Shown here: in pieces, positions 14,757-58,364 of the stretch | Numbering within the stretch: position 1 is the first letter of the stretch | Layout: each line of letters starts with the position of its first letter | NCBI RefSeq assembly: GCF_031656215.1 | Contig: NZ_CP134228.1 | Span: forward strand, 372,001 to 436,000 | From: Mesorhizobium koreense | GTDB taxonomy: Bacteria; Pseudomonadota; Alphaproteobacteria; Rhizobiales; Rhizobiaceae | Length of the DNA: 64,000 bases | Direction of reading: 5' to 3' | Notes under the pieces: model-generated | The model's database searches: none | Seen by the model: the letters and a program-made list of their open reading frames with translations, nothing else | What the model was told of the DNA's origin: nothing | Position numbers and translations under genes: made by a program

Positions 14757-15584
14757 TCAGCCGACGAAGGCGCGCTCCACTACGAAATCGCCGGGGGCAC
14801 TATGCGAGCCTTCTGCGAAGCCGGCTTTCCCGACCAGCGCCTTGACGTCGTGCAGCATGGCCATCGAGCCGCAGATCATGATGCGGTCGTTGGCGGGGTC
14901 GAACGGTTCCGCGCCGATATCCGTGAAAAGCGTGCCGTCCTCGATCAGCGTCGTGACGCGGCCCATGCGCGGAAACTTCCCCCTGGTCGTCGAGGCATAA
15001 TAGGTCAGGCGGCCGTTGGTCAGTTCACCGATCAGCGGGTCCTCGACGCTCTGCCGGTAAAGCGCGGCGCCGTATTCGAGCTCAGCGACATCGCGGCAGG
15101 TATGGGTGAGCACGATCTGGCCGAATTTCTCGTAGGTCTCGGGATCCCGAATGAGGCTCGCGAAAGGCGCGATGCCGGTGCCGGTCGAGATCATGTAGAG
15201 GCGCTTGGCAGGGGTCAATGCTTCGAGCACCAGCGTGCCGGTCGCTTTCTGGCGCAGGAGTATCGTGTCGCCGGCGACAATCTTCTGCAGGTGAGAGGTC
15301 AGCGGACCGTCCGGTACCTTGATGGAAAAGAATTCCAGTTCGTCGTCCCAGGCGGGGCTGGCGATCGAATAGGCGCGGAAGACCGGCCGCTCGGCATTCG
15401 GCAGACCGATCATGACGAACTCGCCGGAGCGAAACCGGAAGCTTTGCGGACGCGTGACGCGGAAGGAAAAGAGCCGGTCCGTATAATGCGTGACCGAAAC
15501 GACCTTTTCCGCGTACACATTGGCGGGAATTGGAAAGGCGCTCGCGGATGCCTCGGCCGAACGGCCGAAATCGGCGGTCTGCAT
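14757..15584 (-). CDS. fpr: Ferredoxin--NADP reductase
   Basis: A 275-residue flavoenzyme transferring electrons between NADPH and ferredoxin/flavodoxin. It has the FAD motif FRAYSIAS, the NADP-binding STGTGIAPF segment, the CGSMAML motif and a C-terminal VERAFVG tail typical of bacterial subclass I reductases. It is divergently transcribed from hyuA across a 184-bp gap that contains an inverted repeat. In other proteobacteria this gene often responds to oxidative stress; no SoxR/OxyR site was identified here. Confidence 0.93.
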   Translation of the reverse strand: MQTADFGRSAEASASAFPIPANVYAEKVVSVTHYTDRLFSFRVTRPQSFRFRSGEFVMIGLPNAERPVFRAYSIASPAWDDELEFFSIKVPDGPLTSHLQKIVAGDTILLRQKATGTLVLEALTPAKRLYMISTGTGIAPFASLIRDPETYEKFGQIVLTHTCRDVAELEYGAALYRQSVEDPLIGELTNGRLTYYASTTRGKFPRMGRVTTLIEDGTLFTDIGAEPFDPANDRIMICGSMAMLHDVKALVGKAGFAEGSHSAPGDFVVERAFVG

Positions 15585-50751: not shown

Positions 50752-50874
50752 CCGCTACAATTCCTCATTGAAGCGGGCAGGTTCATCCGCTAAACAGCGG
50801 ACACCGGCCCGGCGCTCTAGGCGCCGGCGAGAGCGCACCCGTAGCTCAGCTGGATAGAGTGCTGCCCTCCGAAG
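50752..50874. repeat. Left end of integrative element (attL), 123-bp direct repeat
   Basis: Matches 58205-58327 with a single difference (C at 50838, T at 58291). It covers 83 bp upstream of a tRNA-Arg gene plus the first 40 bases of the tRNA, ending in the anticodon loop at CTCCGAAG. Identity stops immediately before and after. The acceptor strand here (GCACCCG) pairs perfectly with the tRNA 3' strand at the right end, so this copy is the original chromosomal one. Confidence 0.95.
50835..50874 (+). pseudogene. 5' half of tRNA-Arg left behind by element insertion
   Basis: GCACCCGTAGCTCAGCTGGA and following bases to the anticodon loop are present, then sequence diverges and no anticodon 3' stem, T arm or acceptor 3' strand follows. 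Not a functional tRNA. It marks the interrupted gene. Confidence 0.95.
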
Positions 50875-51561
50875 CGACCGCAGGGATCACGTCCTTCGAG
50901 AATTGGCAGCTTGCCAGGCCAGAATTCCTAGTAGGTTGATACTAAGCAGTCGAAGCTCTAGGCACATTCGAGCCACTCCGGCGAGCTACCTCTACGGACC
51001 GGGATCCGGCTCCACCCAGCTCTGACTAGACCTCGTCTTCAACATTTGGTTTAGCTGCTGCAACGGTTCGCTGAATGCACGCTCGAAGCGTTTGATATGT
51101 TCGATCATCTAGGCATTTATCCCCTGCCAGTTTTCACGCTGATAGGCTTCAAATGGGGCGGCATATTCCACACAGCTGGATTTCCTGTCGTCGAGGCGTC
51201 CCCACGTTAGTGATGTGCCGAACACCTGCTCGATCTTCTCCTTTTAGCTAATAGCTGGTCGGTTTGTCGGCTCGACTTAGAGGCCGTTTCGAAAGTCATC
51301 GGAAATCCGTTTGGGGACGCCGGCGAGCGAGCGGTTGGCGTCATCTCTGGTAATTTCTAGCGACCAGGCCGTCGGCAGAACCCGTTTTCCCGCCGTGCTG
51401 CGAGTTTCGAAACCGACTCTTAGGTCGCGGCATACCCCACGTCGCCCCTGCGGATCTCGCGCAAAACTGGATATCATTCAAAAAGATCGCTGCTTGCTTG
51501 CAAATGGAAAGTTGGGAGTTCAGGCTGTGCAATTCGCGGGAATCGGTTGGGGCGGCAAAGT
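50875..51561. other. Left non-coding part of the element
   Basis: About 690 bp after attL with no convincing open frame; frames are broken and codon pattern is irregular. It may hold a degraded gene on the minus strand and the promoter of the ATPase gene. Confidence 0.5.
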
Positions 51562-53160
51562 ATGACTGGCATTCAGCGGGATAGGCTACCACTGCGGAAG
51601 CTGCGCTTCGGCAATGTCGACGCAAGATATGAGGTGAATACACGAGACCCTCGTGACGTGGAACATTTCAAGACTTCATTCCTTGAGCCTGCCGGAATAA
51701 CGATAGGTGATTTTATTAATGGCAAGCGGTTTTTCGTTTACGGTGTAAAGGGGGCGGGGAAAACCGCACTCTTGCGGTTTATTCAATTATCAGCGCTCGA
51801 TCAGGGCTCCATTACCAAATTTATCTCATTTGCTACGGAGATCTCTGATCTCGAACGGGAAAGAATTAAGAAGCTATCTGGTATAGACGTTTATGAGCAA
51901 GATATGGTCGAGGTCAAGAATAATAGCGCCGTTGACGTATGGATAATTTTTATACTTAGGCAGATTGCTCGTATAATTGAAGAAAACAGGAGCATCTTCA
52001 CTAGCCATAGAGATACAACTATTTTTTGCCAGCTTATGATGAAGTTTTACGACGGCGAAGAAAATAAAGGTCTCCTTAAGTGGTTAACCGACGCACTTAA
52101 GGCCGGGAAATACAAAATAAAAACGAAATACCTAGATGCCTCGATAAAGGGAACGGATTCAGAAACTGAACGCGAAGTCCCAATAAACTTCGTGATTGAC
52201 CAGGCCTTTAGACTTCTTAAGAATTTAGGGTGGGAAGGCCCGCGTGGTATTTATCTATTTTTTGATGAACTTAATCTTTCATTTTCCTCAAAAGCAACAC
52301 ATAAGCGTGACGTTATCTTGATAAGGGATTTACTTATAGCGATTGACAGGCTGAATACATTTTTTATTGAGAAGGGGAAGCCGATATTTTTATTAGCCGC
52401 TGCGAGGTCCGAGGTCCTGCATGCGCTCAACGCTCCTACACACGAGATCAACAAAATTCTTGCTGATAGGGGGCATGAACTTCGATGGTTCGCGCGAACG
52501 AGCGGAGGTGAATGGCCGATAATAAACCTTGTTCAAAAAAAGGTTCGAGCTTCGGAGAGGATATACGGTATCAAACAAACTGACGATGTGATCGGGAAAT
52601 ACTTCTACAGAGACTTGTATGATTTTGATCCTAAATCATTTATCGTTGAGATGACATGGTGTAACCCGCGCGATCTGGTATTACTCTTAGGAGATGCAGC
52701 GATCCAGGCACAACCCAATGAAGCGGTTTTTGGCGTGGCTGTCATCGAGCGAATTCTTGAGAAGTATAGTGCTGCTGCGTGGCTTGAAAAAGCGGAGGAG
52801 CTTAGTGTGGAATACGCGCCCCAGGAGGTGCAAGCCATAAAAAAAGGGCTTCTTGGCTTTTATCGACATTTCAAACTTAATACATTTGAGCAGGGTTGGC
52901 GGAACAAGGCTGATAACGACCAGACAATGAAGATGATGCAGACCAAGTATGGTGTCCCAAAAATACTCGAAGATCTTTTCCGGATTGGAGTGTTGGGCCA
53001 ATCAACCCGAGAGCCTGATGACGCCGCCCGATCATTCAATCAACATTGGGTCTATCGTGGGGATAACACTTTTGATTCGTCTGCTTGGCTTATCGTTCAT
53101 AAGGCTCTATGGCCGGAGTTAAGGCTTGGAAAGATTAGGGGCAGTGGCAGGGCTGCCTAA
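51562..53160 (+). CDS. AT-rich P-loop ATPase, candidate defence protein
   Basis: A 532-residue protein with Walker A GVKGAGKTA at residues 61-68 and Walker B IYLFFDELN (about D235-E236). A sensor-like Arg follows in AAARSEVL. The remaining sequence is helical with no other domain I can name. It resembles the stand-alone P-loop ATPases (Sll1717-like) found in bacterial defence islands, which is family-level inference. Base composition and codon use are strikingly AT-rich compared with the rest of the window, so it is recently acquired. The ATG at 51562 is preferred over a TTG at 51547. Confidence 0.8.
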   Translation: MTGIQRDRLPLRKLRFGNVDARYEVNTRDPRDVEHFKTSFLEPAGITIGDFINGKRFFVYGVKGAGKTALLRFIQLSALDQGSITKFISFATEISDLERERIKKLSGIDVYEQDMVEVKNNSAVDVWIIFILRQIARIIEENRSIFTSHRDTTIFCQLMMKFYDGEENKGLLKWLTDALKAGKYKIKTKYLDASIKGTDSETEREVPINFVIDQAFRLLKNLGWEGPRGIYLFFDELNLSFSSKATHKRDVILIRDLLIAIDRLNTFFIEKGKPIFLLAAARSEVLHALNAPTHEINKILADRGHELRWFARTSGGEWPIINLVQKKVRASERIYGIKQTDDVIGKYFYRDLYDFDPKSFIVEMTWCNPRDLVLLLGDAAIQAQPNEAVFGVAVIERILEKYSAAAWLEKAEELSVEYAPQEVQAIKKGLLGFYRHFKLNTFEQGWRNKADNDQTMKMMQTKYGVPKILEDLFRIGVLGQSTREPDDAARSFNQHWVYRGDNTFDSSAWLIVHKALWPELRLGKIRGSGRAA

Positions 53161-53355
53161 TTAATGCAGCGCTCTCCCGCCACTCGGGCCATCTGCAAGT
53201 CCTTGATCCTGCTGGTCACCAGTAGCACCTGATGCAGCGCCGGAGAGCGCCCCTGACGCTCGCGGCACAATCCGATCACACTGAGCCCGGAAACCTCCTT
53301 GGCACCCCCCGCGGGGCGTCCTACGCGTCATAGGCACAATTTCGGGAGGTGCTTC

Positions 53356-54342
53356 ATGGCGACGATCCGACGACTCAGAGGCAGATGGCAAGCCCAGGTC
53401 AGACGTAAAGGATTGGCGCCGCGTGCCAAGTCCTTCAATGCAAAATCTGACGCCGAGAAATGGGCGCGCAATCTGGAGGCCGAACTCGACCGCTGCGGAG
53501 TGCTGCCTGATACGCGCCTGGCGGAACGCATGACTGTCCGCGAGCTCCTGGCGCGCTACGTGAAGGAGATCACACCGCTCAAGCGCAGCGCATCGAGCGA
53601 AGGTTATCGCGTAAAGGCGCTGATGAAGCGCGACATCGCGCACCGGACGCTGGCGATGCTGTCGTCAGCCGACGTCGCTCGTTACCGTGACCAGCGCTTG
53701 CAGACAGTAGCAACGTCGAGCGTCATCCGGGAGCTGAATACGTTGGCGCACGCCATCGATATCGCGCGGAAAGAATGGGGCGTGCACCTGGCGCAGAATC
53801 CCGTCCGTATGGTTCGACGTCCTTCGGCTCCTCGTGGTCGTGATCGTCGTCTGTCTGGCGACGAAGAGAAGCGCCTTCTGGAGGCGTGCGATGCCGGGCG
53901 CAGCCCTCACATGCGCCCGCTCATCATTCTCGCCATTGAGACGGCTATGCGTCAGGGCGAGCTGCTGTCGCTGACCTGGGACGATGTCGATCGCGATAAA
54001 CGAATTGCTCACCTGAATCTCACGAAGAACGGTGAAAGCCGCGACGTGCCGCTCAGTAGCCGCGCGCTGGCGGCTCTCGACGCTCTCAAGCAGCTCCGAG
54101 CTGATAAGCGGGTCGTGCCGTCGACCAAGAGCGCACTCCAGCAATGCTGGGGGCATCTCCGAGAGCGCGCTGGTGCGCCGGATCTGCATTTTCATGATCT
54201 ACGCCATGAAGCCGTCTCGCGCCTCCTAGAGCGTGGTCTTAACATCATCGAGACCGCCACGATCTCCGGACACAAGGAGCTCCGTATGCTTCAGCGCTAT
54301 TCGCATCTACGAGCCGTTGACCTGGTCGATCGGCTCGACTGA
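53356..54342 (+). CDS. Tyrosine-type site-specific recombinase (integrase)
   Basis: A 328-residue phage-type integrase with all catalytic residues: R199 (TAMRQGE), K224, H280 and R283 (HDLRHEA), H306 (SGHKEL) and the nucleophile Y315 (LQRYSHL). The N-terminal arm-binding and core-binding domains precede it (about residues 1-160). GGGAGGTGCTTC is a strong ribosome site. It lies between two copies of a tRNA-Arg direct repeat and is the likely enzyme for integration there. No excisionase gene was recognised. Confidence 0.95.
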   Translation: MATIRRLRGRWQAQVRRKGLAPRAKSFNAKSDAEKWARNLEAELDRCGVLPDTRLAERMTVRELLARYVKEITPLKRSASSEGYRVKALMKRDIAHRTLAMLSSADVARYRDQRLQTVATSSVIRELNTLAHAIDIARKEWGVHLAQNPVRMVRRPSAPRGRDRRLSGDEEKRLLEACDAGRSPHMRPLIILAIETAMRQGELLSLTWDDVDRDKRIAHLNLTKNGESRDVPLSSRALAALDALKQLRADKRVVPSTKSALQQCWGHLRERAGAPDLHFHDLRHEAVSRLLERGLNIIETATISGHKELRMLQRYSHLRAVDLVDRLD

Positions 54343-55901
54343 CGTATTGATTTCATTCCCGCCAGATCATGGAAGTCCTAGAACGGCCCGTGATGGTCAA
54401 TGGGGATGCGTTACGGCGCCGGAAGACTTTGATATCCAGAGTGCCCATCCTTGTGGGAGGATCAATGCAGAGGCTACCGCAAATTGACAGGAGTTTTTCG
54501 AGTGTGTCGTATTTGCATTAGGTTAAGGGGCCGAGACAGACACAACTTTCCCTGTTGTTTACATTAAGTTGTCACTTCAAGCGATGAATTTCTTTATTTT
54601 GGCTGCATTGAGCGCTTTTGGGAGCGGGCTCGAGATCCGCATCTGAGTGCTCGGGCGCCGAGCCGAGCAGACTTAAGCTCCAGATCTAAATAGCTATCGG
54701 TCTGGTCATGCCTAGGACGACGATCATTGACAATCGCAGCGGAAAAATGCTGGATCCTGCGGCGGATTGCTATTTGAACGGTCGGAAACGAGCTCCTCGC
54801 CGGCTGCGCATGGTAGGACAGAGGTGACGAAGCAATTGTCTGGCCCCGCTCTTTAAGGGTTGGCCTGCTGCATAATTCGTGAACGGCATGAACCAGCTTC
54901 CTGCCACGCCCTACTGTTGGTTTTGGTTCCCACAATCGTTCAAACCTTGCGCCGGTTTGTTATGGTGCATCTGAGCGATTCCCGGGGCGCCTATCCTTTC
55001 GCAAATGGCTACCGGGAGCAGCATCTTGTTTGACCTGCTTTGCCTGTGCCTTCCTGGTCGCTTTGTGCCAGCAACGCCAACGAGGACTTCAAGAGCAAGT
55101 AGCACTGGATCAGAGGCCGTGGCAGATTCGGATAAGAGGTTTGGCGACCGGATGGCGCGGTCTCTCATGACGTTTCCTTCAGGATTTGCCGCGTTGGTCG
55201 CCAAATTATCGATCCGGAAGCTTGGGAACTGGCTTCAATGACTGGGTAAGTTCTTCGTATTGGAGGGGTGAAGCCACTCCCCATAGGTAAGTGTCCCTTC
55301 ATTTAGTTAGAATCAAAAAATGGAGAAAAAGAGACGTTGGGGAGTGGCTTCACTTCTTCAAACAGAAGCTCCGGCTCGCCAGCGAAGCGCCAAAAGAAGA
55401 AAAATTATTGTAGGAGGGAATAGAGGCTACAAAAAAGTGCAGTGCCTTGGGGATTACCTCCGGCTATCCGCGGCTGCGCCGCGTTCGCCTTCGGATTCCG
55501 GCGCATTCTTGCGACGGCACACCGAAGATCCGTTCAGACTTAGAAGCTTTCCCACTCGACGGTCCGCCACCTGCCGACTTGTTAGCGATTGGGATTGCCG
55601 ACAGTGGGACAGAGAGACGGCTTCAGCGCTCGCGGTGTATCTCAGAGGCCCTTTCAAGGGAAAATTCGCCCTGCTTCGCCATGGCGTTCTACGGCAATTT
55701 CTGGGTTTAGGACGACCCATCGAACGTTTTGCACGGTCATAAAAATCTACAGAAATCGCACTCTTGTTCCTGCATGCGACGGACTCGTCGCTATAACACA
55801 CTGCATCGAGCGCCAGTCGGTTCTCGTCATCTCTTGGCGGAGATTCGGGCGACAGCAATGTCGCCCTGCTTGCCAGAGGTCGAAACGCCGCCAAAAGCAT
55901 C
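54343..55901. other. Gene-poor interior of the element
   Basis: About 1.56 kb with no convincing gene. Open frames present (for example 55320-55742) lack family-like sequence, and neither strand shows consistent codon use. It contains a 15-bp perfect inverted repeat at 55268-55353. Confidence 0.5.
55268..55353. repeat. 15-bp perfect inverted repeat
   Basis: GTGAAGCCACTCCCC at 55268-55282 and GGGGAGTGGCTTCAC at 55339-55353, separated by 56 AT-rich bases. It could form a large hairpin, serve as a protein-binding pair or be the ends of a small degraded element. No coding function assigned. Confidence 0.7.
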
Positions 55902-56915
55902 ATGAGTGTCCTTATGCCACATAACTTTCAGATAGATCGCTCGAAATCGTTATTCCTCCGGTCCCCAAGAACGCCAAAAGAAGAGCGTCGACTGAAACAG
56001 TGGACCGACCGGCTCGCCGTCGCGCACTGCTTCCTTAAGCCAGACGCACTCGCGAATGAGCCCGAACTCATAGCATCCAAGTGGCCTGCATACTGTGAGC
56101 TTGACCCAATGGCAGCGAACATAAAATTCGCGACAGCGTATCACACGGCCTTTCAAGCTCAGTTCCGGATAGACGTGGATAAAAATGACGCCGAGGAGGT
56201 CCAGGGGCTAAACATCGCCCATATAACGCATCCATCCGATCGCAAGGGCCATCGCAGCGAGCTCACCGCTGTCAATTCTGCTCGACAGTGCGCCGACGCG
56301 CTCGGCATGCCCTACAAGCCGTTCATCAAATTCTGCATGCAGTTCGCCAGCGACCGGGGCGTGAAGCACATAGCCCGACCGAACCAGCTTGTTCCGACAA
56401 CGGTAAGTAAATTTCGGGCGGCCTGGGACAGAGAGCTGAAGGACTACTTGTCCACCTACAAGGTTGGGTTGCCTTCAGGGTATCAGGATGAGCGACGCTA
56501 TGAGAGTTCAAGCGAGCCGGGGTGCTTTGGGGTTCCAGGGGCTGTGGATCCGAACTCTGTAGTCTGCGCCACCTGCCCCGTCGCCGAGAAATGCGCCAAA
56601 TTGGCAAGAGCTGTGGTAACGAAAGTCGAGCGAGAGGCAATGAAAGCGAATGCCGTTCTGGCCTACGAAGATAAGCACGCGCTGGTTCTCTTGAAACGCA
56701 AAACTCGGAAGACGGACCAGCAGAGATCCCGCCGCGCTACGAGGCGGATGCCCTCGTCGCGCGCAGCCTTCATCGCTCGAATCCAAGCTGCTTGTATGCG
56801 CTCTTCCGTTATGTCTCCGTCCAAACCAAGGGCTTCCTTGGCAGTATCTATGTCCACCCGTTCACCTCAATTCGCTCTAATCACCAGGAGATACCGCAAA
56901 CAGAGAACCGGCTAA
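55902..56915 (+). CDS. Unrecognised element protein with WhiB-like four-Cys motif
   Basis: A 337-residue protein I cannot assign to a named family. The N-terminal two thirds (to about residue 200) is hydrophilic and mixed helical. Then C208, C222, C225 and C231 form C-x13-C-x2-C-x5-C in CATCPVAEKC, which resembles the iron-sulfur ligands of WhiB proteins. The last 70 residues are rich in Arg and Ser, and their opposite strand carries a plausible small protein, so the true end may be earlier. No ribosome site is clear. Function unknown. Confidence 0.6.
   Translation: MSVLMPHNFQIDRSKSLFLRSPRTPKEERRLKQWTDRLAVAHCFLKPDALANEPELIASKWPAYCELDPMAANIKFATAYHTAFQAQFRIDVDKNDAEEVQGLNIAHITHPSDRKGHRSELTAVNSARQCADALGMPYKPFIKFCMQFASDRGVKHIARPNQLVPTTVSKFRAAWDRELKDYLSTYKVGLPSGYQDERRYESSSEPGCFGVPGAVDPNSVVCATCPVAEKCAKLARAVVTKVEREAMKANAVLAYEDKHALVLLKRKTRKTDQQRSRRATRRMPSSRAAFIARIQAACMRSSVMSPSKPRASLAVSMSTRSPQFALITRRYRKQRTG
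56663..56857 (-). CDS. Possible small protein opposite the Cys-motif gene
   Basis: A 64-residue frame starting MDIDTAKEALGLDGDITEER and continuing with a second amphipathic helix, which has a protein-like, faintly J-domain-like pattern. It overlaps the 3' end of the plus-strand gene, whose translation there looks non-native, so at most one is real in this stretch. Low confidence. Confidence 0.3.
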   Translation of the reverse strand: MDIDTAKEALGLDGDITEERIQAAWIRAMKAARDEGIRLVARRDLCWSVFRVLRFKRTSACLSS

Positions 56916-57257
56916 CGTCTAGGCCATTGCGATCAATGTTGCGGCGGTGCGCTATTTGTTGGATTGCGGAATACACAGAATGGCGCGATCTCTTTCGCGT
57001 GCGAGGCAGTGGCTACCGCCATCGTCAGCAAAAAGACGAACGAACTTTGAGCCAGGGCCCTGAACCAGCCTAATACCAGACTAGCCGAATGCCTCGCCGT
57101 AATCATGGCCTTTACGGCATGGGCGGCTAAGAATCGACACAGCTGATAGAGATACGAACTCGACATGTCGCCCCCGCGACTAAATTCGAGTAATCAAACA
57201 CCAAGCCGCCTTGGGCTGCAAGTTTATGCATTCCTGCTAATCTGTCCGGAGGCAGCA
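56916..57257. other. Non-coding gap in the element
   Basis: About 340 bp without a recognisable gene between the Cys-motif gene and the DUF429 gene; presumably contains the latter's promoter, which I could not define. Confidence 0.5.
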
Positions 57258-58106
57258 ATGGGATCGCCGACCGACACGAGAGGCTGGAGCATCATCGGCT
57301 TCGACTCTGCCTGGACAGACAAGACCAAAGCTCCCGGTGCGGTGAGCATTATCCACTTCGATGGCGGGTCCACGTCGTTCGTCGAGCCTCAACTTGCCTC
57401 TTTCAACCAGGCACTGACCCTTATTCACCGAGAGCGGGATTCCTTCGGTTTTTGTCTTGTCGCACTCGATCAGCCTACGATAGTGGCAAACCTGGTTAGT
57501 CTACGTCCTGTCGAGCGTGTCGTGGCTTCGACAATCTCCTGGGCTGGAGGCGGAGTTCAGCCGGCCAACCGCTCTAAGATCGGGATGTTTGACGACAAAG
57601 CACCGATCTGGCCCTTCAAGGAGAAGCTTGGTGCAACTGAAGATCCAGAAAGCGCTCGAAGATCAGTCGATGGCCTGTTTCTAATCGAAGTCTTCCCAGC
57701 TCTCGCCCTTCTGACGATTGACGATCGCTTCCATGGACGACTGAAAGCACCTCGATATAATCCCGCCAGGAAGAAGACATTCCGGGCGGCGGACTGGCTG
57801 GTCGTGCTAGAAAGTGTGGCGGCTTACGCTCGTTCGTTCGGTCTCGATAACGTTGCTGGTTGGTGCGAGGCTCAGCGCCATCATGCGCCTCGCAAAGCCG
57901 ACCAGGACAAGCTCGATAGCGTCATCTGCGCCCTGGTCGGCTATAACTGGGTTTGGTCGCCACGATCGACCTCCGTCATGATTGGCGACCTCGAAAGCGG
58001 CTATATGATTTCTCCAGCCTCTTCTGCTGTCCGTTCTCGGCTTTGCGAGGCCGCCACTCGCTACGGTGTTCCAATCGACCAAGGCACAGCTGCGGCGCTC
58101 GCCTAG
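57258..58106 (+). CDS. DUF429 family protein (RNase H-like fold predicted)
   Basis: A 282-residue protein of the DUF429 family, whose fold is predicted to be RNase H-like. The opening IIGFDSAWTD holds the first acidic residue (D16), ALDQPT the second (about D74) and a C-terminal KADQDKLDSVICALVGY region the others. It would act as a nuclease if the acids are catalytic; no activity is established. CCGGAGG five bases before the ATG at 57258 is a strong ribosome site. It is the last gene of the element, about 100 bp from attR. Confidence 0.8.
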   Translation: MGSPTDTRGWSIIGFDSAWTDKTKAPGAVSIIHFDGGSTSFVEPQLASFNQALTLIHRERDSFGFCLVALDQPTIVANLVSLRPVERVVASTISWAGGGVQPANRSKIGMFDDKAPIWPFKEKLGATEDPESARRSVDGLFLIEVFPALALLTIDDRFHGRLKAPRYNPARKKTFRAADWLVVLESVAAYARSFGLDNVAGWCEAQRHHAPRKADQDKLDSVICALVGYNWVWSPRSTSVMIGDLESGYMISPASSAVRSRLCEAATRYGVPIDQGTAAALA

Positions 58107-58204
58107 CGCTCTTCGCAAGAGACTTGGACTATCGCTTCGGCCATGCGGCTGTTCCTTCGGCGCACCCGACAGGATTCGAAGCTGTGATCTCTGCGCTCGG
58201 GATA

Positions 58205-58327
58205 CCGCTACAATTCCTCATTGAAGCGGGCAGGTTCATCCGCTAAACAGCGGACACCGGCCCGGCGCTCTAGGCGCCGGCGAGAGCGCATCCGTAGCTC
58301 AGCTGGATAGAGTGCTGCCCTCCGAAG
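58205..58327. repeat. Right end of integrative element (attR), 123-bp direct repeat
   Basis: Second copy of the 50752-50874 repeat, differing by one base at 58291. It restores the upstream region and the first 40 bases of the tRNA-Arg gene. The changed base makes a U-G wobble at the fourth acceptor pair, so this 5' half was brought by the element. Confidence 0.95.
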
Positions 58328-58364
58328 GCAGAGGTCACAGGTTCGAATCCTGTCGGGTGCGCCA
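58288..58364 (+). tRNA. tRNA-Arg (anticodon CCG), rebuilt at element right end
   Basis: A 77-base cloverleaf: acceptor GCATCCG/CGGGTGC, D arm GCTC...GAGT, anticodon stem CTGCC/GGCAG with loop CTCCGAA (anticodon CCG), T arm CAGG-TTCGAAT-CCTG and an encoded CCA end. The 5' half to the anticodon loop comes from the element; the 3' half is chromosomal. Confidence 0.96.

Follow-up and report, generated by a model that had tools for sequence, protein, structure and literature searches.

The element at the tRNA-Arg(CCG) gene

We analysed a 64,000-nucleotide stretch of the Mesorhizobium koreense genome (contig NZ_CP134228.1, positions 372,001 to 436,000; hereafter the window, with positions counted from its first letter), in which a 7.45-kb element appears to sit within a gene for tRNA-Arg(CCG). 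Between the two copies of a 123-nucleotide direct repeat (50752-50874 and 58205-58327, both on the forward strand; 99% identical, 122/123; spacing 7453 bp), it encodes a protein resembling P-loop ATPases, a whole tyrosine integrase, a 337-residue protein and a DUF429 protein. As a preliminary description of this DNA had it, the repeat covers the region upstream of the tRNA together with the tRNA 5′ half. Its 3′ limit falls one base beyond the anticodon loop (CTCCGAA/G). ARAGORN predicts a single tRNA in the entire window, tRNA-Arg(CCG) at 58288-58364 (forward strand), at the right end of the element. Ending 4 bp before the right repeat there is a further feature, overlooked in the preliminary description: an inverted copy of the tRNA 3′ half (58159-58200, reverse strand; 42 nucleotides, 38/42 identical, 90%), which runs from the loop to the CC and lacks the terminal A.

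Aligned with each other, the two repeat copies share 121 of 122 letters, including all 86 upstream of the tRNA part. Their sole mismatch falls on acceptor position 4, which is C in the left copy (GCACCCG) and T in the right (GCATCCG), and places U4 opposite G69 in the wobble pair that had been anticipated. Folding gave the same structure for both versions, that with T4 being weaker by 2.6 kcal/mol (-27.1 compared to -29.7 kcal/mol with C4). The length and identity of the repeat rule out a chance origin, as does the finding that a 23-nucleotide stretch of it occurs twice in the window and in none of 100 shuffles. Across the 5.04-Mb genome, strong matches to the left repeat occur at these two places only, the next best by E-value being 27 nucleotides long. 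Because no second close copy of the tRNA region was present among the scored matches of this whole-genome search, the gene at 58288-58364 appears, judging from the sequence, to be the only tRNA-Arg(CCG) gene of the host.

Which copy is chromosomal

In the congener G001, DNA matching the left flank of the window (89% over 2.8 kb) continues into a whole tRNA-Arg(CCG) that reads GCACCCG and has no repeat. The acceptor letters of 55 tRNA-Arg(CCG) records (the fetched loci, with four genomes, G001, G010, G030 and G035, counted twice) were GCACCCG in 51, GCGCCCG in two, GGACCCG in one and GCATCCG in one, that of the window; the T variant, whose presence in relatives would have told against the proposed history, was thus seen in none of the other 54. 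From the G001 site and this tally we conclude that, of the two copies, the left is the older, T4 being private to the right copy; T4 could have been brought by the element or could have mutated after integration. The left copy (attL, the left attachment site; tRNA part at 50835-50874) would accordingly consist of the chromosomal promoter region and 5′ half, the right copy of their element-borne counterparts, and the complete tRNA would be a hybrid of the right-copy 5′ half and the chromosomal 3′ half.

Window DNA to the right of the tRNA has no more than weak or short matches in the three congeners, one of them an aldehyde-dehydrogenase relative located left of a tRNA-Arg in G002; about 160 bp of the right flank adjoining the tRNA match G010 at 80%. 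G003 has the left-flank genes (85%), followed by about 1 kb of other DNA and then by promoter and 5′ half that break off into unrelated DNA.

A repeat without intervening genes had also been named as a sign against the proposed integration. Copies of the 5′ half 130-300 bp apart do exist in G002, G033 and G057, but the second copy is promoterless by eye and the insert unrelated, and we read them as another type of insertion. At the loci L040 (2211-2591), L042 (9770-10026), L043 (730-973, minus strand) and L039 (9832-10013), the tRNA-Arg(CCG) 5′ half is followed by GGC-NNNN-GTCAAG. After this motif, L040, L042 and L043 show 130-300 bp with GCGTAAGCA repeats and then a whole tRNA without obvious promoter, a 5′-half duplication of another kind with no genes in between; L039 runs to the contig end.

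Related integrases at the same tRNA

Relatives of the integrase were sought in 374 genomes of the family (E <= 1e-75) and were found in 33, that of the window included. Those more than 70% identical come from the window, G720, G135, G159, G723, G078, G739, G131 and G065, each from another genus; they are 72-81% identical and form one clade (support 95/97) in a tree of 22 rows, the outside rows being Ser-type and distant relatives (the Ser label was assumed for G167, G215, G744, G122, G307 and G733, and three distant rows are very long-branched). All nine genomes with a clade integrase also hold 5′-half copies of tRNA-Arg(CCG), the left 5′ half lying on a different contig from the integrase in G720 and G159; the earlier proposal to look for the same arrangement beside homologous integrases was for the most part borne out. 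Together with the left flank of G001 and the 55-record tally, these integrases support the earlier view that the element supplies a substitute promoter region and 5′ half.

G723 shows the arrangement in full. Its left promoter and 5′ half lie 12.8 kb from a right promoter and 5′ half joined to the 3′ half, around an integrase 75% identical to that of the window and a different cargo (noted at L147, 4996-6423), in which an HNH nuclease and a type II methyltransferase accompany a retron of type XII (RT-TIR, E 1e-157). This element group may thus carry defence genes. The left-flank gene of G723 stands beside a whole tRNA in seven of nine congeners, about 1.3 kb extra separating it from the left repeat in G723 itself. 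The remaining two, G168 and G077, are without this neighbour gene; G168 has an inverted 3′ half at the site (score 24, against 12 in shuffles) and a 34-nucleotide promoter-region match 7.7 kb upstream, and the inverted-half remnant of G077 scores no higher than shuffles.

In G078, the left copy, an inverted half and a whole tRNA extend across 13.2 kb, and in G739 the left copy and the integrase are followed by a second 5′ half, at a distance of 7.7 kb from the left copy, and then by an assembly gap and a whole tRNA, all within 7.9 kb. Near the right end of the latter element (L195, oriented, about 14760-14800) we noted a perfect 17-nucleotide match to the anticodon arm of tRNA-Ser(CGA). G135 is represented by a 6160-bp contig with both ends within the 5′ half, and in G065 the left 5′ half is present and contig ends interrupt the element. 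At the left ends of G135, G065 and G078, identity stops exactly at the 7-nucleotide loop. In G131 the whole tRNA lies at one locus, and at another, 2.8 Mb off, promoter and 5′ half are continued by element DNA (C1:1279867-1280108 and C1:4097061-4097265, same chromosome); G035 has a similar pattern (C1:670710-670894 and C1:1433000-1433076). Such paired loci might go back to a tandem pair that a large rearrangement has separated.

Outside the clade, left 5′ halves and right whole tRNAs surround DUF429 genes in L140 (4.3 kb) and L141 (10.2 kb), the latter with an integrase fragment 63% identical. The left copy of L140 has no acceptor stem, as expected of a copy that is not used. Two pattern searches add little to these counts: the first, in 397 genomes, used too short a gap range, missed the window itself and was uninformative, and the second, with hits in 5 of 394 genomes, missed the window and G035 and is therefore not a figure of prevalence.

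The inverted copy of the tRNA 3′ half

In a comparison of 12 loci with the tRNA of their own host (for L096, with that of a Methylobacterium relative), 10 had a clear inverted half (score at least 32, against at most 17 in shuffles), L089 had a degenerate one and L118 none; the inverted half ends 75-104 nucleotides before the tRNA start (10/12). Further inverted halves scored above shuffles in G022, G168, G078, G131 (both loci), G159 and one IMG/VR contig, and of the clade members whose right end is known, the window, G723, G078, G131 and G159 have a clear inverted half. Inverted halves bear host-specific letters, such as the GGCGCGCCC acceptor in L140 and the ACAAG T stem in G158, and in each of 14 loci read by eye their loop letters deviate from those of the tRNA. 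We rejected a tie between the inverted half and DUF429, as in G723 it also follows an HNH gene and in L096 DUF429 is 1.2 kb away from it; an RNA hairpin was rejected as well, the fold being no better than that of shuffles.

Most likely, to judge from these comparisons, the inverted 3′ half, which adjoins the right-hand arm sites, is a leftover attachment core that has been kept tRNA-like by copying between close inverted copies. It is conceivable, albeit rather unlikely, that the inverted half is functional, either as an extra core site for the integrase, as antisense against the 3′ half of the tRNA or as a barrier to reading through into the tRNA. Its recurrence ahead of the promoter copy across many genera, its high identity to the host tRNA and its consistently deviating loop would fit such a role; however, copying between close inverted repeats could preserve the likeness without any function, its RNA fold does not surpass that of shuffles, and in the clade members G720, G739 and G135 the inverted half does not rise above shuffles (in G739 an assembly gap precedes the last copy), which indicates that it is not essential. 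We consider it improbable that the right end, in the order inverted 3′ half, promoter and 5′ half, forms a working unit with a second, inverted integrase core, the loop letters of which would be kept unlike those of the tRNA so that the promoter segment cannot flip, and by means of which the element would rebuild or refresh the unit from the host tRNA gene on entering each new lineage. If true, this unit would amount to a self-adjusting attachment site that follows its host.

Proposed integration at the anticodon loop

We consider it very probable, on the strength of the sequence comparisons, that the window holds an integrative element whose attachment site (attP) carries the promoter and 5′ half of a tRNA and which recombines at the anticodon loop of tRNA-Arg(CCG). 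In the proposed sequence of events, the tyrosine integrase would recombine the loop with attP, which would contain tRNA promoter and 5′ half as far as the loop. After integration, the left end would retain the promoter and 5′ half of the chromosome, now reading into the element, and the right end would have those of the element joined to the chromosomal 3′ half, such that the sole complete tRNA-Arg(CCG) would be expressed from element-borne DNA. An excised circle would be expected to join CTCCGAAG to CGACCGCAGG, and the restored chromosomal site would read GCACCCG...GGCAGAGG.

Candidate arm-type repeats are consistent with such an integrase site. The repeat GGCACATTCGAGCCAC (50961-50976, forward strand) lies 87 bp inside the left junction and is probably, given that the same pattern occurs in other left ends, an arm-binding site of the integrase. 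A direct repeat of the form GSCAC-N6-RSCRC is located 85-95 bp from the loop in 8 of the 11 left ends scanned (window, G723, G739, G135, G131, G065, G159 and L140), or in 7 of 9 within the clade, and the form also occurs close to the right end in several elements; in the 64-kb window it has nine occurrences, on both strands. As for the promoter, we discern by eye a putative -35 box (TTGAAG, 58221-58226) and a putative -10 box (CTAAAC, 58243-58248) in the right repeat, neither of which was reported by the promoter scan.

The left and right promoter regions are alike in all nine genomes compared, with 75-100% identity in the upstream part (for G131 and G035 the two remote loci were used), and right copies from different genomes share mostly short matches, the longest being 68 nucleotides at 75% between the window and G723 and 75 nucleotides at 71% between G723 and G159. 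The simplest reading of a host-lineage promoter in the element is that these elements circulate within lineages. Renewal from the host is the rival explanation: promoter and 5′ half would not be part of attP and, along with the inverted 3′ half, would be duplicated from the host at integration or restored by gene conversion, the right end being rebuilt from host DNA each time. This is what promoter regions alike within and mostly unlike between nine genomes would suggest, given integrases that are 72-81% identical, and the host-specific letters of inverted halves such as those of L140 and G158 point the same way. Nevertheless, we hold this explanation to be unlikely, as circulation within lineages accounts for most of the promoter likeness, and the identity between left and right promoters ranges from 75% to 100%, the 75% of G720 being compatible with a copy from a related donor. 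Moreover, we know of no tyrosine integrase that duplicates a target of 60-130 bp. An ordinary 3′-type island beside a chance or decayed tRNA duplication is hardly credible and was rejected on account of the homologous elements with the 5′-half layout: distant integrases at the same tRNA (G022, G042 and G015; 33-43% identical) do lie just downstream of a whole tRNA in the usual manner, but in the window and beside its related integrases the left fragment is a 5′ half and the whole tRNA stands at the far right end.

Several observations nonetheless weigh against an element that carries the promoter and 5′ half in its attP. A promoter copy so carried would be expected to be foreign sometimes, yet in every pair compared the right copy is of the host's own lineage, even though the related integrases span many genera. 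Of the expected empty site, reading GCACCCG without a repeat, G001 provides the left side; its contig stops at the 3′ end of the tRNA, such that the right flank lies outside it. The right flank of the window finds no syntenic counterpart in the three remaining genomes of its genus, and none of the genus genomes compared shows both flanks joined without the element. Simple integration leaves unexplained the two far-apart loci that G131 and G035 each possess. Nor are the accessory features universal: besides the three clade members without a detectable inverted half, the arm repeat was not found under the strict pattern in G078, G720 and L141, and the right-hand arm site of the window is degenerate by eye, so that this copy of the element may be immobile. 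Finally, the Ser label is unchecked for 6 of the 22 tree rows, and the stretch fetched for G105 is without a tRNA.

A sister clade with whole tRNA-Ser(CGA) copies

Integrases of the sister clade are about 55% identical to that of the window; of the 13 regions fetched, 12 have the integrase downstream of a whole tRNA-Ser(CGA). In ten of 16 genomes a second whole tRNA-Ser(CGA) gene shares contig and strand with the first, as a direct repeat with a spacing of 12.6-24.9 kb, and in all ten the integrase lies between them. The repeat spans the promoter region and the whole tRNA in the six pairs displayed, the other four having been missed by the display pattern. In the remaining six genomes, two copies are found on different contigs in G279 and G068, copies on different contigs and a 3′ fragment in G120, a 3′ fragment in G254, and one close copy each in G105 and G233. 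The tRNA-Ser loci L079, L198-L210 and L211-L239 are of a kind that would be missed by island finders that discard full-length copies. The 5′-half type may derive from an attP with the whole gene, the 3′ half of which the element then lost, a direction that the root of the tree does not settle.

Genes of the element

The integrase (53356-54342, forward strand; 328 residues) is full length (Phage_integrase, E 3.3e-28), and residues R199, H280, R283, H306 and Y315, which we take to be its catalytic set, are invariant in an alignment of three integrases. Upstream of it, on the same strand, lies an open reading frame for a P-loop ATPase-like protein of 537 residues (51547-53160), with weak matches to AAA_16 (E 2.8e-4, below the Pfam cut-off) and mad8 (E 1.2e-4). 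Downstream are a 337-residue open reading frame with no assigned function (55902-56915, forward strand), partial relatives of which occur in other elements of the group, and the DUF429 gene (57258-58106, forward strand). The DUF429 protein (22.2 bits, with a cut-off of 23) matches the candidate defence gene PDC-S44 of PADLOC (E 3.3e-119) and is on this basis a candidate defence protein; no relative of it was found in viral contigs and phages, and five records were found in plasmids. Between the integrase and the 337-residue frame, about 1.5 kb (54350-55900) contain no recognised gene, the three open reading frames there having no Pfam match; this stretch includes an inverted repeat at 55253-55368, GGGGTGAAGCCACTCCCC, with 31-nucleotide arms (81%) and 54 nucleotides between them. 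In Komagataeibacter, at L101 (11023-11112) and L106 (11073-11162), a DUF429 gene lies on the opposite strand to a whole tRNA-Ser(CGA), in the layout usual for islands of the 3′ type.

Comparison with known systems

With its apparently only tRNA-Arg(CCG), the host now depends on DNA that looks element-brought, and loss of the element other than by exact excision would therefore probably cost it an essential gene. Three uses of a tRNA target are seen in the integrase clade and its relatives (the 3′ half, the 5′ half with promoter and the whole gene with promoter), which makes it possible to ask, by comparison and by experiment, why restoration of the 3′ end is so nearly universal among islands.

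In the open-licence literature we recognised nothing comparable on an inverted tRNA fragment at an island end or on duplicated tRNA genes flanking islands, and saw no other description of this element group. Islands with 5′ fragments are on record: in the Islander survey, 159 of 3919 islands have 5′ tRNA fragments and 3760 have 3′ fragments (PMC4383910). The preliminary description was thus correct that the element carries a 5′ half, but in presenting this as the reverse of the usual restoration of the 3′ end it described what is an already known minority class. Like the 5′-fragment islands, the window element has an internal tyrosine integrase, a 5′ fragment upstream of the tRNA on the same strand and an end point at the anticodon loop, and its length of 7453 bp falls within the 2-200 kb of that class; it differs in that the repeat also contains the promoter and the element an inverted 3′ half, and in that integrase clade and arm repeats are mapped for its group (PMC4383910). 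As Islander discards fragments of opposite orientation and, apparently, full-length copies, such elements may be under-counted (PMC4383910).

Archaeal pTN3-like integrases likewise use the 5′ half of a tRNA gene as attachment site, a situation seldom met in bacteria according to a review of archaeal tyrosine recombinases (PMC8371274). There, it is the promoter of the integrase that drives expression of the rebuilt tRNA, and the integrase itself is split into N and C parts (PMC8371274), whereas in the window a copy of the tRNA promoter region precedes the tRNA and the integrase (53356-54342) is whole and lies 2.5 kb inside. With the tRNA-dependent lysogeny of mycobacteriophages the window element shares the provision by the element of an essential tRNA function that its integration disrupts; those phages bring a separate, complete tRNA gene of the same isotype, and their core is too short for the host tRNA to be rebuilt from it (PMC10865867), whereas the window contains one tRNA and the right junction reconstitutes the host gene. 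The whole tRNA-Ser copy of the sister clade comes nearer to this phage system than the window element does. Taken together, these comparisons place the window element in a known but rare class, to which the integrase clade, the carriage of a promoter, the inverted 3′ half and the whole-gene sister clade are new.

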